Part shown: one piece after another, positions 4,696 to 62,850 of the stretch
Numbering within the stretch: position 1 is the stretch's first letter
Layout: each line of letters opens with the position of its first letter
From: Lacrimispora xylanolytica
Lineage (GTDB): Bacteria; Bacillota; Clostridia; Lachnospirales; Lachnospiraceae
Assembly: GCF_026723765.1 (NCBI RefSeq)
Contig: NZ_CP113524.1
Span: 1,101,001-1,165,000, forward strand
Reading direction: 5' to 3'
DNA: 64,000 nucleotides
The notes under the pieces: generated by a model
Seen by the model: only the letters and a program-made list of their open reading frames with translations
Told to the model about the DNA's origin: nothing
The model's database searches: none
Program-made: the position numbers and the translations under genes

Positions 4696-6726
4696 ATGAA
4701 TAACTTGGGATTATGGCATGGAGGAGATTACTATCCGGAGCAATGGCTGGACCAGCCTGAAATACTGAATAAGGATATAGAGCTGTTTTTACAGGCCGGT
4801 ATCAATACGGTTACTCTTGGTGTATTTGCCTGGTCGTTTCTGGAGCCGGAGGAAGGGAAGTTTGATTTTACCTGGCTTCTTAAACGGGTGGACCAGCTTT
4901 ATGAAAATGGAATTTCTGTCATCATGGCGACTCCCTCAGGAGCCCGGCCGAAATGGATGTCAGACCGTTATCCTAACGTACTTAGAGTGAATGAAACAAG
5001 GCAGCGCCAGCTGTTTGGAGGAAGACATAATCATTGCTACACCTCTTCGGTATACCGGGAAAAGGTAGCACGGATCAACCAGAAGCTTGCTCAGACCTTC
5101 AAAGCCCATCCTGGAGTCATTATGTGGCACATTTCCAATGAGTACGGGGGAGAATGTCATTGCCCTCTGTGTCAGGATGCCTTTCGAGGATGGCTTAAGA
5201 AACGATACGATTCCATTGAGGAGCTGAACCGGAAATGGTGCAATGCATTCTGGAGCCATAAATATCTTTCCTTTGACCAGATTGAAAGCCCCTCAACCAT
5301 CGGGGAGAATATGGTTCATGGTCTGAACCTGGACTGGAAACGGTTTGTAACAGAGCAGACATCAGATTTTGCGGCCTGTGAAATCAAAGCCCTCAGAGAG
5401 GCAGGTGCCATGCAACCGGTCACAGCTAACTTCATGTATGATTTTAAGGGACTGAATTACAAACGCTTCTCTCAGGAGATTGATGTGGTATCCTGGGATT
5501 CCTATCCGCTCTGGCATAAGAGGGCGGAGATTCTTACCGCCAGAGACAATGGGCTTCAGCACGATTTCATGAGAAGCTTAAAAAAGAAGCCGTTTCTCTT
5601 AATGGAATCCAGTCCCAGCAGCACCAACTGGCAGGGGGTCAGCAAGCTGAAAAAGCCCGGCATGCTAAAGCTGGATTCTCTTCACGCGGTGGCTCATGGC
5701 TCAGACAGCGTACTGTATTTTCAGATGCGGCAAAGCAATGGAAGCTCTGAAAAGTTTCATGGAGCAGTCATTGACCACTATGGCGGCGAGGATACCCGGG
5801 TATTCCAGGAAGTGTGTGAGATAGGAGAAGCCCTTAACTCCTTAAAGGAAGTGTCCGGAACCAGTGTCCGTTCTAAGGTAGCATTGATTTACGATACGGA
5901 GAGCCGTTGGGCCATGGAGGATGCCCAGGGCCCCAGGAATAACAGTCTTTATCATCACGAGGCTTGTGTAAAAATCTACAGTGCGATAAAAAAACTGGGC
6001 TTTAATGTAGATGTGATATCCATGGAAGATGATTTCACAGGATATGAGTTTATAGCTGCCCCTATGCTATATATGTTCCGCAGTCAGGTGGAAGAAAAGC
6101 TCCGGACCTTTGTAGAGGAAGGTGGAAAACTTATGGTAACCTATTGGTCCGGAATTGTGGATGAGTGGGATCATTGTTTTCTGGGAGGTGTTCCCTACGG
6201 TCTTATGGATGTCCTGGGACTTCGAAGTACTGAGATTGACGGACTATACGATGGAGAGGTCAATCACCTGGTTTCCGTTTCTGGAACATGGGAAGAGAAG
6301 GAGTATGAGTGCCGCAACCTATGCGATCTTATAAAAGTCCAGGGGGCGGAAGCGCTTTTTGTATACAGGGATGATTTTTATCAGGGATATCCGGCACTGA
6401 CCAGAAATCAGTATGGGAAGGGCCTTGCTTATTATGTATGTGCAGATGTAGAAGCGAAATTTTATGATGACTTCTTTAGAAGGGTCATGAAGGAAAGTAA
6501 GATTGAACCACTGGTAAGAGGAGAGATTCCAGAGGGCTTAGAAGTGTGCTCCAGAGAGTCTGATGAGTTTGAATATCTGTTTATCCAGAATTTTAACAGG
6601 GAACCCGTAACGCTTTCTTCTGAGCTGATGGATGATCTTGAGGCTGGGACTTTCCTGTATGGAGATAAATCTGATCATGGTGAAATTGGCGGATTTCAGA
6701 CATTGGTGGTAAAAAGAGAAAAGTAA
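4696..6726 (+). CDS. GH42 beta-galactosidase
   Basis: 676 aa, close to the usual GH42 length. An N-terminal TIM barrel opens with GLWHGGDYYPEQW. The likely acid/base is Glu149 in the HISNEYG motif, and the likely nucleophile is Glu304 in PFLLMESSPS. Four cysteines (Cys114, Cys154, Cys156, Cys159) match the zinc cluster of many GH42 enzymes. A trimerisation domain and small C-terminal domain follow. There is no signal peptide, so it acts in the cytoplasm on imported galactosides. ATG 4696 is chosen because AAGGAA lies nine bases upstream; the longer reading from 4621 would translate the hairpin region. Confidence 0.93.
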   Translation: MNNLGLWHGGDYYPEQWLDQPEILNKDIELFLQAGINTVTLGVFAWSFLEPEEGKFDFTWLLKRVDQLYENGISVIMATPSGARPKWMSDRYPNVLRVNETRQRQLFGGRHNHCYTSSVYREKVARINQKLAQTFKAHPGVIMWHISNEYGGECHCPLCQDAFRGWLKKRYDSIEELNRKWCNAFWSHKYLSFDQIESPSTIGENMVHGLNLDWKRFVTEQTSDFAACEIKALREAGAMQPVTANFMYDFKGLNYKRFSQEIDVVSWDSYPLWHKRAEILTARDNGLQHDFMRSLKKKPFLLMESSPSSTNWQGVSKLKKPGMLKLDSLHAVAHGSDSVLYFQMRQSNGSSEKFHGAVIDHYGGEDTRVFQEVCEIGEALNSLKEVSGTSVRSKVALIYDTESRWAMEDAQGPRNNSLYHHEACVKIYSAIKKLGFNVDVISMEDDFTGYEFIAAPMLYMFRSQVEEKLRTFVEEGGKLMVTYWSGIVDEWDHCFLGGVPYGLMDVLGLRSTEIDGLYDGEVNHLVSVSGTWEEKEYECRNLCDLIKVQGAEALFVYRDDFYQGYPALTRNQYGKGLAYYVCADVEAKFYDDFFRRVMKESKIEPLVRGEIPEGLEVCSRESDEFEYLFIQNFNREPVTLSSELMDDLEAGTFLYGDKSDHGEIGGFQTLVVKREK

Positions 6727-7169: not shown

Positions 7170-9257
7170 ATGAGTAATTTAGACTTATTTTTAATTATTT
7201 CCATTTTGGTATCTGCACTTGCTTTTGGGTTTGCGGCCTGGCTGTTTCGATGGGTCAAGGCTCAGCCGTCTTCCAATGAAAGAGTGGAAGAGATCGGCAG
7301 CTACATAAGGAAGGGTGCAAATACATTTCTTCGAAAAGAATATCTTGTTTTGGCAAAATTCTGTGGGGCAGCTGCGATTGCTATTTTTATATTTCTACCG
7401 GCTCCTATCTGGAAAGGTGGATCAATCTTACCGAATCTGATTATTGTGATCGCCTATTTATGCGGTACTGTTTTTTCCGCGTTTGCCGGTAAAATTGGAA
7501 TTACAGTGGCAACCATGGCAAATATAAAGACAGCGGAGTCAGCCAGAAATGGCGGCTTAAGACCTTCCTTTTTATCTGCATTCCGTGGCGGTGCCGTTAT
7601 GGGAATGGCGGTAGTAGGAAGCTCTCTTTTAGGTGTTGCCTTAGTCATGGCAATTACCCACGATGCTACCGCACTTCTTGGCTTTAGCTTTGGGGCAAGT
7701 TCGCTGGCTCTCTTTGCCAAGGCAGGCGGAGGAATTTTTACGAAAACAGCAGATATCAGTGCTGACCTTGTCGGTAAGGTGGAGCTTGGAATTCCAGAGG
7801 ATGACCCAAGAAATCCAGCGGTTATTGCAGACAACGTGGGCGACAATGTAGGTGATGTGGCAGGAATGGGAGCGGATTTATTCGATTCTAACGTGGCTTC
7901 CATGGCTTCTGCTCTGGTTATGGCAATCGCTCTTGGCAATAAGATGGGAGTCGATTACGCAGCTATGGTATTTTGCTATGCAGCCCTTGGACTGTTATCC
8001 TCAATCTTTGGAGTTATGGCCGCACGTATGGGGAAAAAAGGCGATCCTACCATGGCACTCAATATGAGTACGTATCTTACGACAGGCATCTTTGCAGTTC
8101 TGACCGCAGGCGCGACCGCTTTCTTTTCCTTTGACTGGCGTATCTGGGGAGCAACGGCAATTGGTCTGCTTGTGGGCGTTATTATAGGTATTACCAGTGA
8201 TTACTTTACCAATGACAACAAAAAACCTGTCCGAAATGTGGCAAAGGCATCAGAATCCGGCCCGGCATTTACTATTTTGTCCGGTGTATCCTATGGATTT
8301 TTAAGTGTACTTCCTTCCATGGTCGGTATTGGAATTTCAGCAATGATTTCCTACCACCTTTGTGCATCCATTTCACCCGATGATCCCATTGCAGGAATGT
8401 TTGGTATTTCCATGGCAGCAGTTGGTATGCTTTCCATCGTTGGTATGATCATATCCAATGATGCATACGGGCCTATTGCGGATAATGCCAGAGGTCTTGT
8501 GGAAATGGGTGATTTAGGAGAGGAAGCTTTAGAAATCACAGACTCTCTCGACAGCGCAGGTAATACAGTAAAGGCAGTTACCAAGGGCTTTGCCATTGCA
8601 GCAGCAGGTCTTACGATTATATCTCTGCTTGGTGCGTTTATGAGTGAGGTCAATGAGGCAGCAGGCTCAGTCGTTTTAAAGGGCTTTGATATTATTAATC
8701 CATCCGTATTCTTTGGAATGTTAGTGGGAGCAGCGATACCAGCCATCTTTTCAGCCATGCTGATGCTTGGCGTTGACAGAAATGCACAGCGTATGGTGTC
8801 TGAAATCCATCGCCAGTTCAGAGAAATCAAAGGCTTAAAAGAAGGAAAACCAGGAGTGATGCCGGAATACGATAAATGTATTGATATCGCGACCCATGGT
8901 GCGTTAAAAGAGCTGATTCCAGCTGGATTTGTCAGCATCATTGTTACGATTGCTGTTGGATTTATTGGTGGCGTGGAAGCAACAGGCGGATATCTCACCG
9001 GTAATATTATCAGCGGTCTTCTCTTAGCCCTGTTCATGAGCAACTCTGGCGGACTCTGGGATAATGCAAAGAAATACATTGAAGCAGGCGGCAATGGCGG
9101 AAAAGGAAGCGATGCTCATAAAGCAGCAGTCGTTGGAGATACCGTAGGAGACCCCTTTAAGGATACCGCGGGTCCATCCATTAACACACAGATTACTGTG
9201 GTTTCTCTGGTAGCTTCGTTAATGGCTTCTCTGTTCCTGTCATTTTCCCTGTTTTAA
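7170..9257 (+). CDS. hppA: Membrane H+-translocating pyrophosphatase
   Basis: 695 aa, about 16 membrane segments. It hydrolyses pyrophosphate and pumps ions out of the cytoplasm. The catalytic acidic motif DNVGDNVGDVAGMGAD lies at residues 221-236, preceded by GGGIFTKTADISADLVGKVE. At the cation-control site the sequence is GNTVKAVTKG with Lys468 and Thr471, the pattern of the potassium-independent, proton-pumping subfamily. Potassium-dependent and sodium-pumping relatives usually have Ala and Gly there. It is monocistronic and closed by a strong terminator. The family call is firm; ion specificity is inferred from these residues. Confidence 0.95.
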   Translation: MSNLDLFLIISILVSALAFGFAAWLFRWVKAQPSSNERVEEIGSYIRKGANTFLRKEYLVLAKFCGAAAIAIFIFLPAPIWKGGSILPNLIIVIAYLCGTVFSAFAGKIGITVATMANIKTAESARNGGLRPSFLSAFRGGAVMGMAVVGSSLLGVALVMAITHDATALLGFSFGASSLALFAKAGGGIFTKTADISADLVGKVELGIPEDDPRNPAVIADNVGDNVGDVAGMGADLFDSNVASMASALVMAIALGNKMGVDYAAMVFCYAALGLLSSIFGVMAARMGKKGDPTMALNMSTYLTTGIFAVLTAGATAFFSFDWRIWGATAIGLLVGVIIGITSDYFTNDNKKPVRNVAKASESGPAFTILSGVSYGFLSVLPSMVGIGISAMISYHLCASISPDDPIAGMFGISMAAVGMLSIVGMIISNDAYGPIADNARGLVEMGDLGEEALEITDSLDSAGNTVKAVTKGFAIAAAGLTIISLLGAFMSEVNEAAGSVVLKGFDIINPSVFFGMLVGAAIPAIFSAMLMLGVDRNAQRMVSEIHRQFREIKGLKEGKPGVMPEYDKCIDIATHGALKELIPAGFVSIIVTIAVGFIGGVEATGGYLTGNIISGLLLALFMSNSGGLWDNAKKYIEAGGNGGKGSDAHKAAVVGDTVGDPFKDTAGPSINTQITVVSLVASLMASLFLSFSLF

Positions 9258-9281
9258 AGTGAAATGAATTAGTTTATTAGG

Positions 9282-9312
9282 AAGGAACGCAGCTTGGCTG
9301 CGTTCCTTTTTT
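9282..9312 (+). terminator. Rho-independent terminator after hppA
   Basis: AAGGAACGCAGC-TTG-GCTGCGTTCCTT, a perfect 12-bp stem followed by a T-run. It resembles the hairpin at 10946-10980 on the other side of the xylanase gene. Confidence 0.92.
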
Positions 9313-9698
9313 ACCTTTATCGGAGAGGCCAAATTGGAGAATCTTCAATAAATGCATTTTATATGTGATAAATAGAAAAAAATCGAATTTTAGATGTAAT
9401 TTTTGTGGTTTTATAAGAAAATATGACGAACAGTATCGGATTTTTTACATTTTTACTGGGAAAGATGCATAACGTGTTACATTAGTATTGTCTTTATGAC
9501 CACATAGCTAGAGATAGAAGAAATATGATTCTATTTTTAGCTATGAATCAAGGAAAAGGAGTTTTTTGTTCTGGTAACGTAAAAAGGGAGAATGGAAGGG
9601 GGGGGGAACTTGGTTCGATGTTGGTACCACGATATCTGTTTTTTACGACCGGCAAGGATTCCTTTCAGTTAACCAATTATACATAAGGGGGTAATACA
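9313..9698 (+). other. Xylanase upstream region with one strong RNA hairpin
   Basis: About 385 bases without a gene. The clearest element is a 15-bp hairpin at 9505-9543: TAGCTA, GAGA, TAGAA pair with TTCTA, TTTT, TAGCTA using two G-U pairs. A weak promoter candidate TTTACA-18-CATAAC lies upstream near 9446-9475. AAGGGGG just before the ATG is the xylanase ribosome site. I found no convincing CcpA site. Confidence 0.35.
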
Positions 9699-10856
9699 AT
9701 GAAAAAGTCAGTGAAAAAGATTTTGACAGTGATTTCTGCAATGGCGCTTACCTTATCGTCATTAGGAGTTACTCAGGCAGCAACGGCAGATCAGACTCTG
9801 CTGAATACGTATGGAGCCAAATACGGTCGGGTAGGTACCTGCGTAAATTTATATCAGCTCCAGAACCAACAGACCTTAAATGTCATTAAACAAAGATACA
9901 ACAGTGTCACCCTTGAGAATGAGATGAAGCCGGACGCCATGCTTGGCGGTTCACCGACTCTGATTTCAGTAGCAGAAGCAAAATCACTGGGATACTATAT
10001 TCCTAGTAATTATACAGAGTCTACCGTTCCGAAGATCAATTTTAGCACAGTGGACAAGGTTTTAAAGATTTGTTATGAAAATAATTTAGGACTGCGTGGT
10101 CATACTCTTGTATGGCACGGCCAGACACCAAACTGGTTTTTTAAAACCAATTACAATGGCGGAACCGGCTTTGTAAGCCAGTCTGTAATGAATGCACGTA
10201 TGGAATTCTATATTAAGACTGTGATGAATCACGTTTACACAAGCCAGTACGGCAGCGTTGTTTACGCATGGGATGTGGTAAATGAGTATCTTCACTCCCC
10301 AGGTGGCACCGGTTGGGTCAGCATCTATGGCGGCGTAACAACCAGTCCTCAGTTTGTAAAAGATGCATTCCGTTATGCCAATGAAACATTAAGCTATTTC
10401 AAACTTACCGATAAAGTCAGCTTATTCTATAATGATTATAATGAGTATATGGAAGCTGACAATATTGTAAAAATGATTAATTTCATCAATGCAGAGAAGA
10501 AAATCTGTAATGGTGTTGGTGGTCAGGCTCACTTAGAAACATCTTTCCCAAGTGCATCTTACTTTAAGCAGGCATATACGAAATTTGCTAATGCAGGCTT
10601 AGAAATTCAGATTACTGAATTTGATGCCGGAGCAAGTTCTGAGCAGGCGCAGGCTACATATGTATACGATATCATGAAATCCGTAAACGAAATTAAAAAA
10701 TCGGGCGGTAAAATTACAGGCTTTACCTGGTGGGGACTTTCTGATGACGTTTCCTGGAGACGTGATAAGAATCCATTGCTCCACTCTAACTTAAATACTC
10801 CTAAGGCTTCCTATTACAGAACACTGGATGCCTTTACCGATGTATTTGGCAGATAA
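9699..10856 (+). CDS. Secreted GH10 endo-1,4-beta-xylanase
   Basis: 385 aa. A Sec signal peptide (lysines, hydrophobic core, cleavage probably after TQA near residue 27) leads directly into a single GH10 barrel with no carbohydrate-binding module. Likely catalytic residues are the acid/base Glu196 in WDVVNEYLH and the nucleophile Glu307 in IQITEFDAG. NEMKPDAM and HTLVWHGQTPNW are the classic GH10 substrate-cleft motifs. It would cut xylan outside the cell. The gene stands alone between two related terminator hairpins, with no neighbouring xylan transporter. Confidence 0.95.
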   Translation: MKKSVKKILTVISAMALTLSSLGVTQAATADQTLLNTYGAKYGRVGTCVNLYQLQNQQTLNVIKQRYNSVTLENEMKPDAMLGGSPTLISVAEAKSLGYYIPSNYTESTVPKINFSTVDKVLKICYENNLGLRGHTLVWHGQTPNWFFKTNYNGGTGFVSQSVMNARMEFYIKTVMNHVYTSQYGSVVYAWDVVNEYLHSPGGTGWVSIYGGVTTSPQFVKDAFRYANETLSYFKLTDKVSLFYNDYNEYMEADNIVKMINFINAEKKICNGVGGQAHLETSFPSASYFKQAYTKFANAGLEIQITEFDAGASSEQAQATYVYDIMKSVNEIKKSGGKITGFTWWGLSDDVSWRRDKNPLLHSNLNTPKASYYRTLDAFTDVFGR

Positions 10857-52475: not shown

Positions 52476-53498
52476 ATGAAAAAAATCATAAGAAAAGCAG
52501 GGAAAGCAGTTTTACTTGCAGCGGCACTTACTGCATCCTTAAGTGCCTGTAAGAAGCAGGAAACGCAGACAGGTAATACAGAAGCAGAGAATTTAAAGAA
52601 AGTAACATTTGTTCTTGATTGGACGCCTAACACCAATCATACAGGCCTTTATATTGCACAGGAAAAAGGATATTTTAAAGATGCCGGACTTTCTGTTGAT
52701 ATTGTACAGCCACCGGAAGATGGGGCAGCCGTTTTAGTCGCCTCAGGAAAAGCGGAATTTGGCATGGCATTTCAGGATACCATGGCCCCGGCACTGGTTG
52801 GGGATAATGCCTTACCGATTACAGCTGTGGCAGCTGTGATTCAGCATAATACTTCTGGAATTATCTCCAGAAAAGGGGAAGGCATGGATACTCCCAAAGG
52901 ACTGGAAGGGAAAAAATATGCTACCTGGGATAATCCAGTGGAAAAAGCCATGATAAAAGATGTGGTGGAAGCGGATGGCGGAGATTTCTCCAAAATAGAG
53001 ATGATTCCAAGTACAGTGACCGATGAAGTTTCTGCTTTAAAAACAAAGTCAGTGGATGCCATCTGGATTTTCTATGGCTGGGCAGGCGTTAAGATGGAAG
53101 AAGAAAAACTGGATACCGATTATTTTCAATTTGCAGATTTAAATCCGGTGTTTGATTATTATACACCTGTTATGATAGCCGGTAATGATTTCTTAAAGAA
53201 TGATCCGGAAACGGCAAGAGCGTTTCTTGGTGCCGTTAGCAAAGGGTATGAAGACGCAGCAAAGAACCCGGAGGAAGCAGCAGAAATATTATGTAAGGCA
53301 GCTCCAGAGCTTGATAAAGGCCTTGTCCTGGCAAGCCAGAAATACCTTGCTGATAAATATCAGGCTGGAGTGGATGTATGGGGATATATGGACCCCAAGC
53401 GTTGGAACGGATTTTACAACTGGCTTAACGACAATGGACTTTCTAATCCTGCAATACCGGAAAACACTGGCTTTTCCAACGACTACCTGCCACAGTAA
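52476..53498 (+). CDS. ABC substrate-binding lipoprotein, NMT1/THI5-like (ThiY-like)
   Basis: 340 aa. Lipoprotein signal with lipobox LSAC. The NMT1/THI5 fold opens VTFVLDWTPNTNHTGLYIAQ and continues YFKDAGLSVDIVQPPEDGAAVLVASGKAEFG. ThiY-type proteins bind formyl-aminopyrimidine or HMP. ATG 52476 follows TTGGAGGAA; longer readings overlap the permease gene. Confidence 0.92.
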   Translation: MKKIIRKAGKAVLLAAALTASLSACKKQETQTGNTEAENLKKVTFVLDWTPNTNHTGLYIAQEKGYFKDAGLSVDIVQPPEDGAAVLVASGKAEFGMAFQDTMAPALVGDNALPITAVAAVIQHNTSGIISRKGEGMDTPKGLEGKKYATWDNPVEKAMIKDVVEADGGDFSKIEMIPSTVTDEVSALKTKSVDAIWIFYGWAGVKMEEEKLDTDYFQFADLNPVFDYYTPVMIAGNDFLKNDPETARAFLGAVSKGYEDAAKNPEEAAEILCKAAPELDKGLVLASQKYLADKYQAGVDVWGYMDPKRWNGFYNWLNDNGLSNPAIPENTGFSNDYLPQ

Positions 53499-53513
53499 AA
53501 TCAGGAGGCTTAT

Positions 53514-54266
53514 ATGGTACATTTAAAGGCGGAAGGCATAAAAAAGTCTTTTGAAGGAAGAACGATTTTAGAAGGTGTATCTCTGGAACTTAAGGAAGGG
53601 GAGCTGGTTTCCCTTCTTGGAGCAAGCGGAGGAGGAAAAACCACCCTGTTTCAGATTCTCGCAGGACTCAGCCTGCCGGAGGAGGGCCACGTTTTTATTG
53701 ATGAAAGAGAGGTTACAGGGAAACCAGGTAACGTCAGCTACATGCTTCAAAAGGACCTGCTCCTTCCATATCGAACGGTGGTTGATAACGTGGCTCTTCC
53801 CCTATTGCTTTCCGGAATGAGAAAAAAGGAGGCCAGAGAAAAAGCAGCCGGATACTTTGAGCTGTTTGGCTTAGAAGGAACCGAAAAAAAATATCCCTCC
53901 CAGCTCTCCGGCGGTATGCGGCAAAGAGCAGCTCTTTTAAGGACATATTTATTTAAAAGGCCCATTGCCCTTTTGGATGAACCATTCTCAGCCCTTGATA
54001 TGCTTACCAAGCACGCCATGCATGAATGGTACTTAAAGGTGATGGAGGAGATTAAGCTATCCACTCTTTTTATCACCCACGATATTGACGAAGCCATTCT
54101 TTTATCGGATCGTATCTGCCTTTTGACCGGGTCTCCCGGAAAGATAACCAGAGAGATTCTGATCAAAGAGCCAAAGCCCAGAAGCGTAGAGTTTCACTTG
54201 TCTGAAGAATTCCTGGAATACAAAAGAGAGATCACAAAGCATTTACTAGATGGAAAAATTAGGTAA
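53514..54266 (+). CDS. ABC ATPase for thiamine precursor (ThiZ-like)
   Basis: 250 aa. Walker A GASGGGKTT, signature LSGGMRQRAALLRT, Walker B LLDEPFSALD, H-loop FITHDIDEA. Closest in type to SsuB/TauB/ThiZ ATPases. Completes the riboswitch-controlled importer. Confidence 0.92.
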   Translation: MVHLKAEGIKKSFEGRTILEGVSLELKEGELVSLLGASGGGKTTLFQILAGLSLPEEGHVFIDEREVTGKPGNVSYMLQKDLLLPYRTVVDNVALPLLLSGMRKKEAREKAAGYFELFGLEGTEKKYPSQLSGGMRQRAALLRTYLFKRPIALLDEPFSALDMLTKHAMHEWYLKVMEEIKLSTLFITHDIDEAILLSDRICLLTGSPGKITREILIKEPKPRSVEFHLSEEFLEYKREITKHLLDGKIR

Positions 54267-54354
54267 ATTTGACGCTTGTTATTCCCTTAAAATCGTGTTA
54301 CCCTAGACAGGTATGGAAATGATTTCCATAAAATACAGCAAAGGATTTGAGGAA

Positions 54355-55764
54355 ATGGACAGGAAAAGAAATCATGTACTTACAATGGCTAAAGTCCTGG
54401 TTCTGACAGGGGTATTTATTCTGGCAGGACAGGGGAATGCACTGGCAGATGCCTCCTTAAAGTTTGTGCCTGGAACAAAGATCAACGGAGTCTTTGTGGG
54501 CGGTATGACAGTGGAGGAAGCAAAAGTACAGATAGAAGGCTTTTATGGAAGAGAATATAACTTAACGATTAAGACAAAAGACGGAAAGGCGGAGGTCATC
54601 AAGGGCTCTGACATCGGATATCAGGTGGTGATTACCGATGGATTAAAGAGCATCCTGGATGAGCAGAACGCCTCAGGCCGCGTAGCAGGACCTGCCGAGG
54701 ACAACAGCCGCAGCTTAAAAAGCACGGTGGCCTTTGATGAAGGAAAACTAAAGGAAAAGCTGAATGGCCTTTCTTTTGTAAGCGGACAGGGAGTCGTAAC
54801 TACGGTAAATGCAAGGATATCCGCCTTTCAACAGGGGGAGCCATTCACCATTCTCCCGGAGGTGCAGGGAAACAGCGTGAACATGGGAAAGCTGGAGGAA
54901 GTAGTAAAAGGCGGGCTGAACCAGGAACTTCGGGAAATCAGCTTAGAAGATTCCGGCTGCTATGACGCGGTTACCGTTACAAAGGATGACCCTGGCTTAA
55001 AGGCACAGTGCGAGGCACTTAATAAGGTCAGGGAGATGCAGATTACATATACTTTTGGAAACAGAACCGAGGTTCTTTTAGGAGAGGAGCTGAGCTCCTG
55101 GATTACCGCTGGGGCAGATGGCTCCATTCAGGTGAATCAGGAAAAGGCTGCCGCCTACGTAAAGACCCTGGGAGACAAGTACGACACTGCCGGCAGGGGA
55201 AGAAATTTCCGTACCACAAGCGGAAGGGATTTAAGCTTATCCGGTGCTTATGGCTGGCAGATCAACCAGCCGGCTGAGGTTGGGGAGCTGATCGCTGCCA
55301 TTCGCGGCGGACAAAGTATTACGAAGGAACCCAAGTACTTAAAAGCTGCCGCAGACCGGAACAATGACTGGGGTGGAACCTATGTAGAAGCGGATATGTC
55401 TGCCCAGCATGTTTACATGTACAAGGATGGAGCCCTAGTCTGGGACGCTCCCTGTGTCACTGGAAATGTATCAAAGAATTATACCACACCCGAAGGAATC
55501 TATACCTTATCTTATAAGCAGACGGACCGGATTCTTCGTGGAGATAAAAAGGCGGACGGGACCTATGAATATGAGAGTCATGTAGATTACTGGATGCCAT
55601 TTAACGGTGGAATCGGTTTTCACGATGCCAACTGGAGAAGTAAGTTCGGCGGAGCTATTTATAAAAACAGCGGAAGTCATGGCTGTGTCAATCTGCCTCC
55701 CAAAAAGGCGAAAGACCTTTACAGTCTTGTTTATTCCGGAATACCGGTTATCTGCTTTTATTAA
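54355..55764 (+). CDS. L,D-transpeptidase with VanW/PG-binding_4 domain (1)
   Basis: 469 aa. N-terminal membrane anchor or signal (to about residue 33), two repeats of a PG_binding_4-like domain (GTKINGVFVGGMTVEEAK…), and a C-terminal YkuD catalytic domain with His442 and Cys444 in SGSHGCVNLPP. It cross-links peptidoglycan through 3-3 bridges or attaches proteins. AAGGA nine bases before ATG 54355 favours this start over ATG 54313. A paralogue lies at 61002. Confidence 0.9.
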   Translation: MDRKRNHVLTMAKVLVLTGVFILAGQGNALADASLKFVPGTKINGVFVGGMTVEEAKVQIEGFYGREYNLTIKTKDGKAEVIKGSDIGYQVVITDGLKSILDEQNASGRVAGPAEDNSRSLKSTVAFDEGKLKEKLNGLSFVSGQGVVTTVNARISAFQQGEPFTILPEVQGNSVNMGKLEEVVKGGLNQELREISLEDSGCYDAVTVTKDDPGLKAQCEALNKVREMQITYTFGNRTEVLLGEELSSWITAGADGSIQVNQEKAAAYVKTLGDKYDTAGRGRNFRTTSGRDLSLSGAYGWQINQPAEVGELIAAIRGGQSITKEPKYLKAAADRNNDWGGTYVEADMSAQHVYMYKDGALVWDAPCVTGNVSKNYTTPEGIYTLSYKQTDRILRGDKKADGTYEYESHVDYWMPFNGGIGFHDANWRSKFGGAIYKNSGSHGCVNLPPKKAKDLYSLVYSGIPVICFY

Positions 55765-55771
55765 GAAAAAG

Positions 55772-55823
55772 AAAGGGATTGTCTTGTCACCTGGCAACAG
55801 ATTGACAAGACAATCCCTTTGTG
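55772..55823 (+). terminator. Terminator after L,D-transpeptidase 1
   Basis: AAAGGGATTGTCTTGTCA pairs perfectly with TGACAAGACAATCCCTTT around a 13-nt loop: an 18-bp stem, short T-tract. Confidence 0.82.
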
Positions 55824-55864
55824 TTACATTGATGACATTAAATGGCAGAAAGGAGAAGACATTG

Positions 55865-56620
55865 ATGTCAGAAATCATGCCGCATTTAAAGCTTTCCAAG
55901 GAACAGGCAGCCCCCTTTGCTCTTTTACCCGGAGACCCAAAACGGCTTGACCGGATTGCCCCCTATTTGGAGGATGTAAGGGAGCTGGCGTTTAACCGGG
56001 AATTTCGAAGCTTAAAGGGAAGCTTTCGGGGAGTTGAGGTGATGGCTGTATCCACTGGAATCGGTGGCGCTTCGGCGGCCATAGCGGTAGAAGAGCTTCA
56101 CCGCATCGGAGTCAGGGCCATGATACGGATTGGAAGCTGTGGTGCTCTTAAAAAAGGCATTTCTCTGGGAGATTTAATCATAGCAAGTGGTGCCGTTCGT
56201 AACGACGGGACCTCCTCATCCTATGTAGATTCCGCTTACCCGGCAGTCCCTGACCCCCAGCTTTTTATGGCCTTAATGGAAAGCGCCAGAGAATCGAGAG
56301 TTCCCTGTCATGCAGGGATCATAAGAAGTCATGACAGCTTTTATATTGACGAAGAAAAGGAAATATGTGAGTACTGGTCAAAAAAGGGTGTCCTTGGCTC
56401 TGATATGGAAACTGCGGCGCTGTTTGTGACAGGAGGCTTACGGGGAGTAAAAACTGCTTCCATCCTGAATACCGTAGTCCAGTATGAGGAATCCTTAGAA
56501 GAGAACATAAACCTTTATACCGGCGGTGAATCAGCTATGATGAGGGGAGAACAAGCAGAGATTCTTACGGCACTTCAAGCATTTGTTCGGATCAGTCAGA
56601 ACCAGGAAGGGAGAATATGA
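55865..56620 (+). CDS. Nucleoside phosphorylase, uridine phosphorylase type
   Basis: 251 aa. PNP/UDP family: ALLPGDPKRLDRIAPYL, MAVSTGIGGASAAIAVEELHRIG, MIRIGSCGAL and SDMETAALF. It cleaves a nucleoside with phosphate to base plus ribose-1-phosphate. ATG 55865 follows AAAGGAG. Its stop overlaps the ECF S-component start, so it works with that transporter. NiaR downstream hints that the nucleoside could be nicotinamide riboside; uridine is the family default. Confidence 0.87.
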   Translation: MSEIMPHLKLSKEQAAPFALLPGDPKRLDRIAPYLEDVRELAFNREFRSLKGSFRGVEVMAVSTGIGGASAAIAVEELHRIGVRAMIRIGSCGALKKGISLGDLIIASGAVRNDGTSSSYVDSAYPAVPDPQLFMALMESARESRVPCHAGIIRSHDSFYIDEEKEICEYWSKKGVLGSDMETAALFVTGGLRGVKTASILNTVVQYEESLEENINLYTGGESAMMRGEQAEILTALQAFVRISQNQEGRI

Positions 56621-57225
56621 AAATGAAACAGTTATTTAAAACGAAATGGAATGCAGCCTGCTTTGTGCTGATTCCAGCCTGTATTGGTATCAATTATCTG
56701 GGAAAATTATTTGCTTCTGTTTTAAAGCTGCCACTTTGGCTGGATTCCATTGGAACCTGCATTGGCGGAATTCTTGGAGGGCCTGTAATCGGGGGGATCT
56801 GCGGAGCTGCCAACAATCTGATCTTTGGTTTTACCACCGGGGATTCCATTACTCTTGTATATGCCTTAACAAGTCTTGGGATCGGCGCGGCAGCAGGAAT
56901 CATGGCAAGACTGGGCCATATGAAATCATTGGGGGGTGCCTTATTCACAGCCTGCGTCACAGGCTTGACAGCCGTTGTTATTTCCACCCCTTTAAACATT
57001 ATCTTCTGGGGAGGAACCACCGGAAATATCTGGGGAGATGCAGTGTTTGCATGGTCACAGGCTTCTGGGCTTCCAGTTTTCTTAGGCTCATTTTTAGATG
57101 AAGTGGTGGTAGATGTTCCAGACAAGTTTATTACTCTTTTGATCGTGTTTGCCATTGTGAAAGGACTTCCCAGGAAACTTACCTCACTGTATGACATTGA
57201 TGATGAAGTTGTAAGCCTGGATTAG
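56617..57225 (+). CDS. ECF transporter S component (substrate-binding)
   Basis: 202 aa, about six hydrophobic segments. It opens with a short basic N-terminus, and contains LPLWLDSIGTCIGGILGGPVIGG and small-residue helices typical of ECF S components. The substrate is not recognisable from sequence alone. It overlaps the phosphorylase gene (ATGA) and precedes T and A components, so this is a dedicated ECF transporter. Confidence 0.85.
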   Translation: MKMKQLFKTKWNAACFVLIPACIGINYLGKLFASVLKLPLWLDSIGTCIGGILGGPVIGGICGAANNLIFGFTTGDSITLVYALTSLGIGAAAGIMARLGHMKSLGGALFTACVTGLTAVVISTPLNIIFWGGTTGNIWGDAVFAWSQASGLPVFLGSFLDEVVVDVPDKFITLLIVFAIVKGLPRKLTSLYDIDDEVVSLD

Positions 57226-57243
57226 AGAAAAAGGCGGTTAATT

Positions 57244-58017
57244 ATGAAAAGCATCAGTCTTTATGTGGATCAGGATACCTTTTTAACCAGACTCCATTCC
57301 TTTTCCAAGTTATTTTACATTGCAGCAGCCATTGCCATTCCTCTCATCGGAGGCGGTTTCCGTTTATATGTCCTTAGCCTGGGATTAAGCTTTTGTCTGA
57401 TTGCAGCAGGAAAAATCGGAAGAAGAATTCTGCCTCTCATCGCGTTTTCATTTACCATTATTCTTACGGTATTTTTGATTCACGGACTCTTTAATCAGAA
57501 AAATGAACAGATCCTTTTTACTCTGGGACCTCTCGTCTTTTACAGGGAAGGGCTTTTATATGCACTTAAGATAGGGCTTAATATCTTAAATATGCTCCTT
57601 GCCTTTGCGGTCCTTGTGCTGACGACCAGACCAGCAGTCCTTGTGGATGATTTAGAACAGGCTGGATTTTCTCCCAGATTCGGCTATATGATCTGTTCTG
57701 TGTTTCAGATTATCCCTCAGATGATGGGAACCATGAATACCATACTGGATGCCCAAAGAAGCAGGGGCATGGAGACAGAAGGCAATATACTGGTAAGAGC
57801 CAGGGCATTTCTTCCCCTCATTTCTCCAGTGGTAAACAGTTCATTAATCAATACCAGAGAAAGGGCCATTGCCTTAGAAGTCCGTGGATTTGATTCCAAA
57901 GAGAAAAAGACCTTTTTACAGGATCGTAAATTACGGGGAGAAGATAAGAGATTTATAGCCATGATGGCGGTTCTTCTCTTTGCAGCTCTCATATGGAGGA
58001 TACGTGTATGGCTCTGA
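57244..58017 (+). CDS. ECF transporter T component
   Basis: 257 aa, CbiQ/EcfT family: membrane protein with a C-terminal coupling region including DAQRSRGMETEG and RERAIALEVRGFD, the two Ala-Arg-Gly-like motifs that dock to the ATPases. Its end overlaps the next gene. Confidence 0.9.
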   Translation: MKSISLYVDQDTFLTRLHSFSKLFYIAAAIAIPLIGGGFRLYVLSLGLSFCLIAAGKIGRRILPLIAFSFTIILTVFLIHGLFNQKNEQILFTLGPLVFYREGLLYALKIGLNILNMLLAFAVLVLTTRPAVLVDDLEQAGFSPRFGYMICSVFQIIPQMMGTMNTILDAQRSRGMETEGNILVRARAFLPLISPVVNSSLINTRERAIALEVRGFDSKEKKTFLQDRKLRGEDKRFIAMMAVLLFAALIWRIRVWL

Positions 58018-59720
58018 TTGAGGTGAAACAGTTAAAGTACCGCTATCCCCATACGGACAAGCTGGCTCTTGACGGAATTGATTTTACTGTGGAAAAAGGG
58101 CAGTTTATTGGAATCATCGGGGAAAATAAGGCAGGGAAGAGCACTCTATGTCAGGCTTTTGTGGGACTGGTGCCCTCCATGTTTCGGGGAGCCTATGGCG
58201 GAACGCTCATGATTCATGGTATGGAGGCGGCTAAAACACCGGTAGCTAAACTTTGCCGTCATGTGGGGCTGGTGTTTCAAAATCCGTTTAACCAGTTATC
58301 AGGAGCCAAGGAAACGGTGTTTGAGGAGGTTGCCTTTGGCCTTCAAAATCTGGGGATTCCCAGAGAGGAAATCATAAGACGGGTGGAGGATAATCTTTCC
58401 CGCCTGGACATTTTAGACTATAAAAACAGGAACCCATTTGACTTATCCGGAGGTCAGACCCAGAGAGTGGCAATCGCAAGCATACTGGCCATGGAGCCAA
58501 AAGTCATTGTTCTTGACGAACCAACCTCTCAGCTTGACCCTCAGGGAAGCGAAGAGGTCTTTCAGGTGGTAGAGGCCTTAAAACAATCCGGCATCACCAT
58601 ACTGATGGTAGAACACAAGATGGAAAAGCTGGCAGAATACTGTGATAAGATCCTTCTTTTGCACCAGGGAAGACAGATTGCCTATGATACACCGGAACGT
58701 ATTTTTTCCAGAGCGGATTTAGAACAGTATGGAGTGGAACCACCGGTCTATACAAAGGTGTGTGAGAAACTTGAAATCTACAGGGAATCAGGGGATCAAA
58801 AAGAGTATCCGGTTACCTTATCACAAACCGTGGAGAAAAAGGACAGCTTTCCAAAAACTCTTTCCGGCAGAGAAATAGAAAAACAAGGGACTTTATGGGA
58901 AGAAGAGGTCTCAAAGGAACAAGAAGTGCTTTTTGAAATTCAGGATCTGGAGTTTGGCTATACCTCACAAAAGCTGGTGATCCATAGCCTGTCTCTCAAA
59001 TTATCAAAACAGCCCACAGCCATCATCGGTCAAAATGGTGCGGGTAAAACCACCTTAGTGAGGCTTTTGAAAGGATTGCTAAAGCCGGGTGACGGCCAGA
59101 TCCTTTTAAACGGAGAAGATATTTCGGAAAAAACTGTTGCAAAGCTGGCGGGAGTGGTGGGCTATGTGTTCCAGAACCCTGATGATCAGATTTTCAAAAA
59201 CAAGGTAATCGATGAGGTAATGGTAGGGCCTCTTCATATTGGCATGAGCCGGGAAGAAGCTGGAAAAAGGGCCAGAGAGGCCCTTTCCATGGTCGATATG
59301 ACGAAATGGGAGCAGGAAAATCCTTATGATCTGGATCTTTCAGAACGTAAGATGGTGGCCATTGCTTCTGTCATTGCCATGGAGCCAAAGGTGCTGATTT
59401 TAGATGAGCCAACCATTGCTCAGGATATAAAAGGACGTAAGCTTTTGGGCTCAATCATAAAAAAGCTCAGTGACAAGGGAGTATTTGTCCTGGCGATTCT
59501 TCATGATATGGACTTTGTAGCAGAATACTTTGACCGGGTCATTGTCATGGCTCATGGAAAGGTGCTGGCAGACGGACCAAAAGAAGCTGTTTTCTATGAT
59601 AAGGACAGCTTAAGTACGGCAAGACTTGAACAGCCTCATATGACAAGGCTGTGTGAGGCATTGGGATACCAGGGGATATTTTTAACAGCAGACGATATCA
59701 AAGATAAAGGCAGGGATTAA
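58008..59720 (+). CDS. ECF transporter fused double ATPase
   Basis: 570 aa with two ABC ATPase domains in one chain. Domain 1: Walker A GENKAGKST, LSGGQTQRVAIAS, DEPTSQLD. Domain 2 (from about residue 310): GQNGAGKTT and DEPTIAQD, but its signature reads LSERKMVAIAS rather than LSGGQ, so one ATP site is probably weak. ATG 58008 follows GGAGGA. Confidence 0.92.
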   Translation: MALIEVKQLKYRYPHTDKLALDGIDFTVEKGQFIGIIGENKAGKSTLCQAFVGLVPSMFRGAYGGTLMIHGMEAAKTPVAKLCRHVGLVFQNPFNQLSGAKETVFEEVAFGLQNLGIPREEIIRRVEDNLSRLDILDYKNRNPFDLSGGQTQRVAIASILAMEPKVIVLDEPTSQLDPQGSEEVFQVVEALKQSGITILMVEHKMEKLAEYCDKILLLHQGRQIAYDTPERIFSRADLEQYGVEPPVYTKVCEKLEIYRESGDQKEYPVTLSQTVEKKDSFPKTLSGREIEKQGTLWEEEVSKEQEVLFEIQDLEFGYTSQKLVIHSLSLKLSKQPTAIIGQNGAGKTTLVRLLKGLLKPGDGQILLNGEDISEKTVAKLAGVVGYVFQNPDDQIFKNKVIDEVMVGPLHIGMSREEAGKRAREALSMVDMTKWEQENPYDLDLSERKMVAIASVIAMEPKVLILDEPTIAQDIKGRKLLGSIIKKLSDKGVFVLAILHDMDFVAEYFDRVIVMAHGKVLADGPKEAVFYDKDSLSTARLEQPHMTRLCEALGYQGIFLTADDIKDKGRD

Positions 59721-59735
59721 TAAAAATTGGATGGA

Positions 59736-60251
59736 ATGGAACGCAGACAAAAAATAATACAAATCTTAAGCCAGGAGGACATGCCCGTTTCCGGTACAGA
59801 GCTTGCAAAACGGCTGGGAGTGAGCCGGCAGGTCATTGTTCAGGATGTGGCCCTGATGCGGGCGGAGCAGACGGAGATTCTTTCCACGAACAAAGGATAT
59901 GTACTTCGCCGCCAGCCAGGAAAAGAGGAGGAAAGCTTTGTAAGAGTCTTTCGGTCCACACACAGAACAGAAGATACCTTAAGTGAGCTTCAGACCATTG
60001 TGGATTATGGCGGCAGGCTTCTTGACGTGTCCATCGAGCATGAGGTCTACGGTGAGATCCATGTGGATTTAATCATTAATAACCGGTTGGATGCAGAGGA
60101 ATTTGTAGAAGCCCTGGAGACATCGAAGGACCAGCCTTTAAAGGCGCTTACCAATGGCTGCCATTACCACACGGTGGCGGCGGATTCCATAAAGAATTTA
60201 GACAGAATTCAACAGGAATTAAAGAATAAAGGCTTTCTGGTGGAAGAATAA
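59736..60251 (+). CDS. niaR: NiaR-type niacin-responsive repressor (HTH + 3H domain)
   Basis: 171 aa. N-terminal HTH_11 winged helix (RRQKIIQILSQ…GTELAKRLGVSRQVIVQDVALMRA) and a C-terminal 3H domain whose histidines appear in STHRT, EHEVYGEIHVDL and GCHYHTV. This matches NiaR/YrxA, which represses NAD-precursor genes when niacin is bound. It follows the ECF genes closely, so it probably controls them. TTG 59727 is an alternative start. Confidence 0.87.
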   Translation: MERRQKIIQILSQEDMPVSGTELAKRLGVSRQVIVQDVALMRAEQTEILSTNKGYVLRRQPGKEEESFVRVFRSTHRTEDTLSELQTIVDYGGRLLDVSIEHEVYGEIHVDLIINNRLDAEEFVEALETSKDQPLKALTNGCHYHTVAADSIKNLDRIQQELKNKGFLVEE

Positions 60252-60260
60252 GGCACGTAA

Positions 60261-60307
60261 AATACCTGGCTCTTAAAAGAAGTATGAATGAGAGCCAGGT
60301 ATTTTTC
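60261..60307. terminator. Terminator between niaR and hypothetical gene
   Basis: AATACCTGGCTCT pairs with AGAGCCAGGTATT (13 bp), followed by T residues; works for the rightward operon and possibly the convergent gene. Confidence 0.85.
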
Positions 60308-60313
60308 ATATGT

Positions 60314-60805
60314 TTATTCCGAGCAAAAAACTATGACAGACTGTGGCGTGGTCTGAGCCGGTATGCTGCGGGTGGTAAATAAGTAAAGAACAAGAAGGTA
60401 GTGGCCTCCCGGATTGTAAAAAAAGGTTTGCCCATTGGGCAGAAGCACGTTGGTAGAATCGGAGATATTAAGCTTTAAAGTCTCGTCGGTATTAAGCAGG
60501 TCCTCGTTAAAATAATCAAACATAGCCTGAAATCCATCTTCATTTTTTGCAAGCATCACTGCAGTGAATTGTGGCGGATAGATTAAGGGAACAGGAGCGC
60601 TGGTATCATAAATAGCAATGATGGGATCTCCTTCTTTAAAGGTATGCTGGCCCAAGACATAAGTATTGGGATTAACGACAAAATTCACCTGACCGAGGCT
60701 TTGGCTCATAACAGAGATCAGAATAGAACAGCTATGGTCCAGAGCCGAGGTTTTTAATGGAGTAATGGAACTGATGGTTCCATAAACAGGAGTATAACGG
60801 GTCAT
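60314..60805 (-). CDS. Hypothetical protein
   Basis: 163 aa, no signal peptide or membrane segment, no domain I recognise. Distinct stretches include TPVYGTISSITPL, QVNFVVNPNTYVLG, EGDPIIAIYDTSAPVPLIYPPQFTAVM and a C-terminal FYNPGGHYLLVLYLF. It looks like a beta-rich single domain. ATG 60805 is ten bases after AAAGGA; TTG 60811 is possible. Single gene, opposite to its neighbours. Confidence 0.7.
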   Translation of the reverse strand: MTRYTPVYGTISSITPLKTSALDHSCSILISVMSQSLGQVNFVVNPNTYVLGQHTFKEGDPIIAIYDTSAPVPLIYPPQFTAVMLAKNEDGFQAMFDYFNEDLLNTDETLKLNISDSTNVLLPNGQTFFYNPGGHYLLVLYLFTTRSIPAQTTPQSVIVFCSE

Positions 60806-60931
60806 GAACAAGATTTCCTTTGGAACATTCTTAGTTTCATTTTATGAAGAGCAATTCCTCTCTGTGAAAAATCTTAATAACTCTTTCCTGGAAATCGTAA
60901 TAAAAACGTCAAGAAATATACCATAAATATT

Positions 60932-60961
60932 TAGACATATTTCGCGTTTATCCGTTATAAT
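60932..60961 (+). promoter_or_regulatory. Promoter for L,D-transpeptidase 2
   Basis: TAGACA (60932-60937), 18 bases, TATAAT (60956-60961). Confidence 0.6.
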
Positions 60962-61001
60962 TGATTCTGAACGAAAAGGATAGCAAAGAGGTAGGAAATA
61001 A

Positions 61002-62723
61002 ATGGAAAAACATGAACAGCGCAGCAGAAAGAAGAAGTCCTTAGGAGTATCGGGGCTGGCATTAGTTGGAGGCGGAATTATGGCAGCAGCGCTGATTGCT
61101 GCTTTTGCATACATACAGGTTGGCAGATCATATCAAAAGGTGTTTTTCCCTAAAACCGTTATCAATGGAATGGACGTTTCAAAAAAATCAGTGATGGAAG
61201 TCAAAAAGATGATTGCTTTGACCATTGATGATTATAAGCTTACCTTACAGGAACGGGGAGGAACCACGGAAGAGATTAAAGGCATGGATATCGGTCTGGA
61301 AGCCGTATTCGATGGAAAGCTGGAATCTTTGCTGGGAGAACAAAAGCCCCTTTCCTGGGCAAAACACTTAAGGAAGCCCCAGTCATTTGAAATCGGAACC
61401 ATGATTCAGTATGACCAGAATAAATTTGATACTGTGGTAAACGGATTATCCTGCTTAAAGATAGACGAAGAGGATAAGGCTCAGAACGCATCAATTTCTG
61501 ATTACGTCTCTGGTCAGGGTTACCAGATTAAGCCGGCCAAGGATGGCAAAGAATTAAACCCGGAAAAGTTGAAGTCAGAGATATCAAATGCAGTTATGGA
61601 TTTAAAGCCGGAGCTTAATTTAGACGAGGTGGGAGCTTATATCTCTCCTAAGGTGCCGACCAATGATCCAGGGCTTGTAAGCAAGGTTCAGACCATGAAT
61701 AAGTATGTCAACACCACGATTACATATAACTTCGGCGATGAGAAAAAGGTACTAAGCGGAGATACCATCTCCAAATGGGTCAAAACCGATGACAGCGGCC
61801 AGGTTTATTTAGACAGTAAATCCGTCAGTGATTATGTAAAAGAACTGGCAAGTACCTATGATACGGCCTACAAGGCCAAGAATTTCACCACTTCCACCGG
61901 ACAGAATGTGAAAATTACCGGAGGAAGCTATGGCTTTAAAATCAATCAGAGTGCTGAGGCAGACGAGTTGGCAGAGCTGATCCGTACCGGTAACAGTCAG
62001 GTAAGAGAGCCTGTTTATAAACAGAGGGGCGCCAGCAGAGGCGCTAAGGATTATGGGAATACATATGTGGAGATCAACTTGACGGCTCAGCATATCTACT
62101 ATTATAAAGACGGCAAGCTAATTGTGGAATCTGATTTCGTATCAGGCAATGAATCCAAGGGCTGGTCTACTCCAGCAGGAGCTTACGCCCTTACTTATAA
62201 AGAACGCAATGCCACACTTAAGGGAGAGAATTACAGAACTCCTGTGGATTACTGGATGCCATTTAACGGCAATATCGGTCTTCACGATGCCAAATGGCGG
62301 AGCACCTTTGGAGGTTCTATCTATAAGACCAGCGGCTCTCATGGCTGTATCAATCTTCCTCCAGCCGTTGCAAAGACCATTTTTGAGAACATAGGTGCAG
62401 GAATTCCGGTCCTTTGTTATCATCTGCCAGGAACCGAGTCTCTGACTACTTCCAATGGAACCGGAAAAAAGGAAGAGACAAAAGGCGCCCAGCAGCCAAC
62501 GACTCAGGCAGGTACCCAGCCAACCACCCAGGCAGCTACTCAGCCAGCCACACAACCAACCACCGCAGCACCTACGACAGCAGCGCCAACAACAGCAGCT
62601 CCGACTACGGCTCCGGCGGCAACCACCCCAACCACAGTTTCAGCCCATCCTTCCTTTGACCAGGAGGCAGGGCCTGGCGCATCGAAAAGTACGGGAAAGA
62701 ATAAGTCCGGACCTGGGATGTAG
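61002..62723 (+). CDS. L,D-transpeptidase with VanW/PG-binding_4 domain (2)
   Basis: 573 aa. Cytoplasmic Lys/Arg start, one membrane helix (about 17-42), two PG_binding_4-like repeats, YkuD domain with Cys449 in SGSHGCINLPP, then an ~85-residue Thr/Pro/Ala/Gln-rich tail with PTTAA repeats (62560-62630). Same layout as the enzyme at 54355 apart from the tail, which may span the wall. Likely forms 3-3 peptidoglycan cross-links. GAGGTAGG precedes the ATG. Confidence 0.91.
   Translation: MEKHEQRSRKKKSLGVSGLALVGGGIMAAALIAAFAYIQVGRSYQKVFFPKTVINGMDVSKKSVMEVKKMIALTIDDYKLTLQERGGTTEEIKGMDIGLEAVFDGKLESLLGEQKPLSWAKHLRKPQSFEIGTMIQYDQNKFDTVVNGLSCLKIDEEDKAQNASISDYVSGQGYQIKPAKDGKELNPEKLKSEISNAVMDLKPELNLDEVGAYISPKVPTNDPGLVSKVQTMNKYVNTTITYNFGDEKKVLSGDTISKWVKTDDSGQVYLDSKSVSDYVKELASTYDTAYKAKNFTTSTGQNVKITGGSYGFKINQSAEADELAELIRTGNSQVREPVYKQRGASRGAKDYGNTYVEINLTAQHIYYYKDGKLIVESDFVSGNESKGWSTPAGAYALTYKERNATLKGENYRTPVDYWMPFNGNIGLHDAKWRSTFGGSIYKTSGSHGCINLPPAVAKTIFENIGAGIPVLCYHLPGTESLTTSNGTGKKEETKGAQQPTTQAGTQPTTQAATQPATQPTTAAPTTAAPTTAAPTTAPAATTPTTVSAHPSFDQEAGPGASKSTGKNKSGPGM
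62560..62630 (+). repeat. Short in-frame Pro-Thr-Thr-Ala-Ala repeats
   Basis: Tandem near-identical units encoding PTTAA at the end of the L,D-transpeptidase gene; low-complexity DNA liable to change length. Confidence 0.75.
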
Positions 62724-62748
62724 GGGAAAGGAATCTAATAATAAAATC

Positions 62749-62790
62749 AGAGGCAGTCTCCGGATATTTAATAGGAGGCTGCCTCTTTTT
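62749..62790 (+). terminator. Terminator after L,D-transpeptidase 2
   Basis: AGAGGCAG-T-CTCC pairs with GGAG-G-CTGCCTCT, followed by TTTTT. Confidence 0.88.
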
Positions 62791-62850
62791 GCTGTAATAA
62801 AGAATACTGCCTCCTGTCTTCCCTTCGTCTCCTTCCCTTATGAACTTTAC

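Follow-up and report, generated by a model that had tools for sequence, protein, structure and literature searches.

A NiaR-linked energy-coupling factor transporter and nucleoside phosphorylase operon in Lacrimispora xylanolytica, a candidate system for vitamin B3 nucleoside salvage

Which compound is taken up by a transporter whose genes stand between that of a nucleoside phosphorylase and that of the regulator NiaR? The question is raised by an operon in Lacrimispora xylanolytica (assembly GCF_026723765.1), whose genome is a single 4.5-Mb contig, NZ_CP113524.1. The stretch of DNA analyzed here, referred to as the window, comprises 64,000 nucleotides (positions 1,101,001 to 1,165,000 of the forward strand), and all coordinates are those of the window. 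At 55865-60251 it holds five plus-strand genes, encoding the phosphorylase, the S, T and fused A-A subunits of an energy-coupling factor (ECF) transporter, and NiaR. The comparison set consists of 80 genome loci with an orthologue of this system; L numbers denote loci and G numbers genomes.

Import of a vitamin B3 vitamer under the control of NiaR is very probable, and nicotinamide riboside (NR), cleaved by phosphorolysis, is the most likely form of the cargo, with somewhat better than even prospects. For the complete proposal we estimate a probability of about 0.5: a niacin-repressed ECF importer for NR acting with an NR phosphorylase specialized away from uracil and purines, with a nicotinamidase devoid of the metal site as alternative partner. 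This would be an ATP-driven NR salvage distinct from PnuC/NadR, filling part of the B3 gap in gut Firmicutes.

Operon, regulator and candidate operator

The initial annotation had described the same five genes, and domain matches bear out each of them in place and strand. The phosphorylase (55865-56620, 251 aa) is a member of the PNP/UDP (NP-I) family, with a PF01048 match of 6e-34 and 117.8 bits against a cut-off of 25.1 bits. It is followed by the ECF substrate-binding S subunit (56617-57225, 202 aa; PF12822 with 30.9 bits, cut-off 30.7), the T subunit of the EcfT/CbiQ type (57244-58017, 257 aa; PF02361, 3.7e-21) and a fused EcfA-EcfA' ATPase (57993-59720, 575 aa), which matches PF00005 in two stretches and TIGR04520 and TIGR04521 above cut-off. 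The last gene (59727-60251, called with a TTG start; an ATG lies in frame at 59736) encodes a NiaR-type repressor with HTH_11 and 3H domains. As S, T and two ATPase domains are encoded together, the transporter belongs to group I of the ECF class, which has its own S, T, A and A'. The genes had been called largely overlapping, which slightly overstates the case: the junctions are tight, and two of the four overlap (phosphorylase/S by 4 nt and T/A by 25 nt as called, with gaps of 18 nt at S/T and 6 nt at A/NiaR). The order phosphorylase-S-T-AA-NiaR was found again in 17 of the 80 related loci, far more often than chance would allow for a regulator present in a single copy. Clostridium sp. 12(A) and [Clostridium] aerotolerans have the nearest named loci.

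The regulator is the only 3H-domain protein of the genome; this domain scored 110.8 bits beside HTH_11. Its PDB matches 9ebr, 1j5y and 7cv0 represent either NiaR or its homologue from T. maritima. It retains the metal ligands and most niacin contacts, including His79, Glu87, His146 and His148 of the metal and niacin site as listed in PMC7713382. In the tree of S subunits NiaR occurs in two separated clades, which implies that the unit acquired it two or more times or lost it repeatedly. Of 14 genomes tested whose locus lacks NiaR, 9 have no NiaR at all, and in G119 (contig of L098) it lies directly behind S-T-AA, masked in the open reading frame (ORF) calls by an ORF on the opposite strand.

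A search for a NiaR site upstream of 55865, as the initial annotation had suggested, was positive. Two candidate NiaR boxes form an inverted pair there, TGTCTTGTCA (55780-55789) and, as its reverse complement, TGACAAGACA (55803-55812). They lie inside an 18-bp inverted repeat (55772-55820; arms 55772-55789 and 55803-55820) and are the only two exact matches to the box within the 64-kb window. The plus-strand sigma-70-type promoter TTGACA-17-TACATT (55802-55830; 10 of 12 matches, TG before the -10) has its -35 hexamer TTGACA inside the right box, so that a repressor bound there would stand in the way of RNA polymerase. The range 55865-60251 originally assigned to the operon thus covers the five genes but leaves out the promoter and operator pair at 55772-55830.

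The box recurs with the regulator. Of the 35 relatives whose locus includes NiaR, 33 have the box upstream of the operon with up to one mismatch; L087 and L088, the remaining two, are nearly identical to the window and have an ORF call beginning ahead of the box, a start-call artefact. Loci without NiaR mostly lack boxes. Inverted pairs occur in 21 of 77 loci versus 0.002 per locus in shuffled sequences, and the position of the -35 within the box was counted in 21 loci and is visible in L098, L103, L106, L119, L121 and L127. Among 15 genomes three niaX-like S genes were found, each preceded by an exact box at a distance below 100 nt. The window genome has 11 exact boxes; outside credible genes they occur only before the operon, the niaX-like gene and one chemoreceptor gene. 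No exact copy was found in the pncB loci searched. On this pattern NiaR would repress the operon and the niaX-like gene together. The chemoreceptor gene encodes a dCache methyl-accepting chemotaxis protein and has the box directly upstream (L248, position 3347), which is possibly a sign of niacin-linked chemotaxis or a chance match.

Two related L,D-transpeptidase-like genes, read by eye, bracket the operon (54313-55764 and 61002-62723), and an Rfam scan of 53000-62800 gave no match.

A link of the transporter to NAD had been proposed from the gene content, and it is well supported by the shared NiaR-type operator, the missing NadA and recurrent nicotinamidase-like partners. NadA was not found in 18 of the 19 genomes tested, which means that they lack the usual de novo route, and the gut-type bacterium of the window apparently cannot synthesize NAD de novo; 11 of 12 genomes have PncB. 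PnuC was above cut-off in only one of 15 genomes and not in that of the window, and no niaX-like gene was found in 12 of 15. With neither of the two in most genomes, the ECF system is the sole candidate B3 importer found there among the systems searched, which did not include NiaP of a large transporter family.

Phosphorylase, S subunit and cysteine hydrolase

The phosphorylase scores below the equivalog cut-offs of both Udp (TIGR01718; 183.7 versus 280.3 bits) and DeoD (TIGR00107; 108.8 versus 232.25 bits), and its closest solved relative is PDB 4lnh, for which we know of no substrate test. It keeps the counterparts of E. coli Udp Gly26, Arg30, Arg48, Arg91, Met197 and Glu198, which bind phosphate and ribose. 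A deletion removes the Gln-x-Arg loop that grips uracil (E. coli Udp Gln166/Arg168). Together with the low Udp and DeoD scores this indicates a base pocket typical neither of uracil nor, by family score, of purines. Reactions of NR with phosphorylases are documented, since E. coli DeoD cleaves NR and XapA makes it weakly from nicotinamide (PMC3923242).

The S subunit is closest to the named family CD3073 (NF045596), to which it is similar over nearly its full length with 86 bits against an equivalog cut-off of 180, and comparison with PDB by sequence gave no useful match. Its AlphaFold model (pLDDT 88) has the S-component fold, with VIA-align Z values of 15.1 to ThiT and 14.8 to TmRibU, and of about 11 to 15 across ThiT, RibU, FolT, biotin and pantothenate S subunits; the modelled fold gives no indication of the substrate. 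The orthologous S clade is coherent in the tree, and its deepest branch consists of phosphorylase-only loci. Stand-alone paralogues with about 30% identity adjoin genes for nucleoside hydrolase (IunH), ribokinase, DeoC and phosphorylase (L047-L051); these ECF systems are candidate general nucleoside importers.

Other S relatives occur in different settings. In L045 (G032) a paralogous S with 33% identity (5483-6061, plus strand) adjoins nadABC-like genes (7251-10339, minus strand) as read by eye, a neighborhood that would again link the S family to NAD. A closer set, 33-42% identical, forms N-terminal fusions to large signalling proteins and keeps most conserved polar residues. About 30 such proteins of the Lachnospiraceae type carry the S-component-like membrane domain at the N-terminus together with the polar motifs conserved in the S subunit of the transporter (for example L037:5680-9279, plus strand; L043:7723-12468, plus strand; L044:5016-9866, minus strand; also L038-L041). 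The members scanned belong to the propeller (Reg_prop/Y_Y_Y) proteins and have HD-GYP or hybrid histidine-kinase modules at the far end; the S-like domain seems to be an ECF S subunit that has been turned into a receptor. The gene behind the L037 fusion encodes a Bmp/PnrA-like binding protein (Pfam), and the neighbors in L038-L041 are similar.

A cysteine hydrolase (about 185 aa) accompanies the phosphorylase or takes its place in 43 of the 80 loci. Its gene, for example L141:5405-5971, lies within the operon or next to it in divergent orientation. The protein has the isochorismatase fold (model pLDDT 97) with invariant catalytic Asp, Lys and Cys. The best PDB match by sequence is the nicotinamidase of P. 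horikoshii (E 6e-6); structure comparison is indecisive on the substrate, since the scores of maleamate amidases, nicotinamidases and others differ by no more than about 2 Z units. Each of 12 genomes examined has either a canonical PncA-like protein (DTH...HC) or the hydrolase: the five without hydrolase all have the former, and four of the seven with hydrolase lack it. In G155 the hydrolase is the only protein of the isochorismatase family. This complementarity suggests that the operon-linked hydrolase replaces PncA.

A PfkB-family kinase gene stands behind NiaR in nine loci with hydrolase and NiaR (L125, L126, L128, L139, L144 and others); the models closest to the protein are those of fructoselysine 6-kinase and ribokinase. 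In three Oribacterium-type loci a uridine-kinase-like gene precedes S; it was considered as NR kinase and dropped, as it recurs with unrelated MoxR/VWA genes and also on the opposite strand.

Cargo of the transporter

We infer all substrates, all reactions and the binding of NiaR in the following route. The S subunit would bind NR, which the dedicated T/A-A module would import using ATP. The phosphorylase would convert NR and phosphate to nicotinamide and ribose-1-phosphate, a nicotinamidase (in the window genome the ordinary PncA-like protein, in many relatives the cysteine hydrolase linked to the operon) would make nicotinate, and PncB would channel it into NAD. NiaR, encoded last, would bind niacin and repress the promoter via the boxes that overlap the -35, closing a feedback loop. 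That a nucleoside is carried and split by the phosphorylase, as the initial annotation had it, gains support from the 4-nt overlap of phosphorylase and S, the phosphorylase in the deepest S clade and the nucleoside enzymes next to paralogous S genes; the claim is weakened by 35 of the 80 loci that lack a labelled phosphorylase (a few through contig ends or masked ORFs), many of them with a lone hydrolase, which fits nicotinamide as well.

Further observations weigh against NR import under NiaR control. Kinship among the loci inflates the counts, and the genomes of the set hold other PNP-family enzymes. The hydrolase is without the Asp-x-His...His metal site of known nicotinamidases. In L120, L158 and L163 NiaR is present and the operon has no box, and spirochaete, Oribacterium and several other genomes carry the system without NiaR, so that there the link to NAD depends on the hydrolase alone. 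The assignment of the stand-alone ECF S gene of the window genome as niaX-like is tentative; the libraries give just PF12822. In 15 loci of the type hydrolase-S-T-AA-NiaR, which lack the phosphorylase, nicotinamide alone would suffice as cargo.

The last point leads to the main rival, in which the cargo is nicotinamide and the phosphorylase serves another purpose, for instance the cleavage of NR formed inside the cell. The S subunits of these 15 loci are about 70% identical to that of the window with the same invariant residues, and a nicotinamidase-like enzyme would complete the route by itself; on the other hand, the phosphorylase gene overlaps that of S and is present in the deepest clade, paralogous S proteins accompany nucleoside enzymes, and other PNP-family enzymes could cleave NR in the genomes without the phosphorylase. 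We regard nicotinamide as an unlikely cargo. A general importer of pyrimidine or purine nucleosides with a uridine-phosphorylase-like enzyme, NiaR being a passenger or a regulator of remote genes, would agree with uridine phosphorylases as the closest named enzymes and with the nucleoside catabolic genes beside S relatives. It is quite unlikely in view of the NiaR-type box shared by the operon promoter and the niaX-like genes, NiaR within the operon in two separated S clades, the missing Gln-x-Arg loop and the recurrent nicotinamidase-like partner. Nicotinate riboside, split directly to nicotinate for PncB, would make an amidase unnecessary, and none is encoded in the window operon; nicotinate is moreover the effector of NiaR (PMC7713382). 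The amidase-like hydrolase of 43 of the 80 loci would then stand idle, however, and we consider this cargo improbable to a high degree.

The operator has a rival of its own, in which the repeat 55772-55820 would terminate transcription of the L,D-transpeptidase-like gene upstream. The RNA does fold to an 18-bp stem (z -6.6), but no terminator-like site with a T run was found, and the 10-bp box persists singly or with arms 46 bp apart (L127), behind differing upstream genes and before niaX-like genes. With the -35 in the right arm the stem would not be transcribed from this promoter. A terminator in place of an operator is hardly credible.

Comparison with known systems

Taken singly, ECF importers, NiaR regulons and phosphorylases that cleave NR are all known. 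The literature searched on CD3073 or on ECF and nicotinamide riboside did not describe their combination in a dedicated importer of B3 nucleosides, though the NiaR regulon paper of 2008 and the ECF classes paper of 2009 may mention it. NR is a human supplement, and bacteria that import and split it to nicotinamide could alter the supply of the host. In a survey of gut genomes the known B3 transporters NiaP, NiaX and NiaY were present in only 25% of B3-auxotrophic strains (PMC6593275). The operon is a concrete candidate for part of this gap, and its regulator, putative binding site and enzymes open the substrate to testing; as an orthologue with at least 59% identity occurs in about 6 of 150 sampled Lachnospiraceae-type genomes, it would account for a share of the gap and not for all of it.

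Udp and 4lnh belong to the same family as the window phosphorylase and share its phosphate and ribose residues, whereas the deletion of the uracil loop distinguishes the latter from Udp. The PnuC-NadR route serves import and use of NR, as proposed for the window operon, but works with a kinase, NadR, and a transporter outside the ECF class, PnuC, in contrast to the ECF transporter and phosphorylase of the window. CD3073, the family nearest to S, is a putative ECF S component (NF045596) with no substrate assigned to it.

NiaX of Streptococcus pneumoniae is also an ECF S subunit; it is NiaR-regulated, as predicted for the window S, and has a predicted role in B3 vitamer supply and niaR nearby (PMC5343564), while the window operon has its own T, A-A and phosphorylase; between the window S and the niaX-like protein of the same genome no sequence similarity was detectable in a comparison made without a named NiaX sequence. 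NiaR (YrxA) of B. subtilis, B. halodurans and T. maritima shares HTH_11 and 3H domains and metal ligands with the window system, whose candidate box is also of the TGT-N4 type, and differs in target operon and in the box, which in the window is TGT-CTTG-TCA, the type I NiaR box TGT-N4-ACA (PMC7713382) with one base changed. The best half-site copies have one to two mismatches to the S. pneumoniae NiaR operator core tested by mutagenesis, and the G033 copy GGTGTCTTGTCACCT differs from it at one position (PMC5343564).

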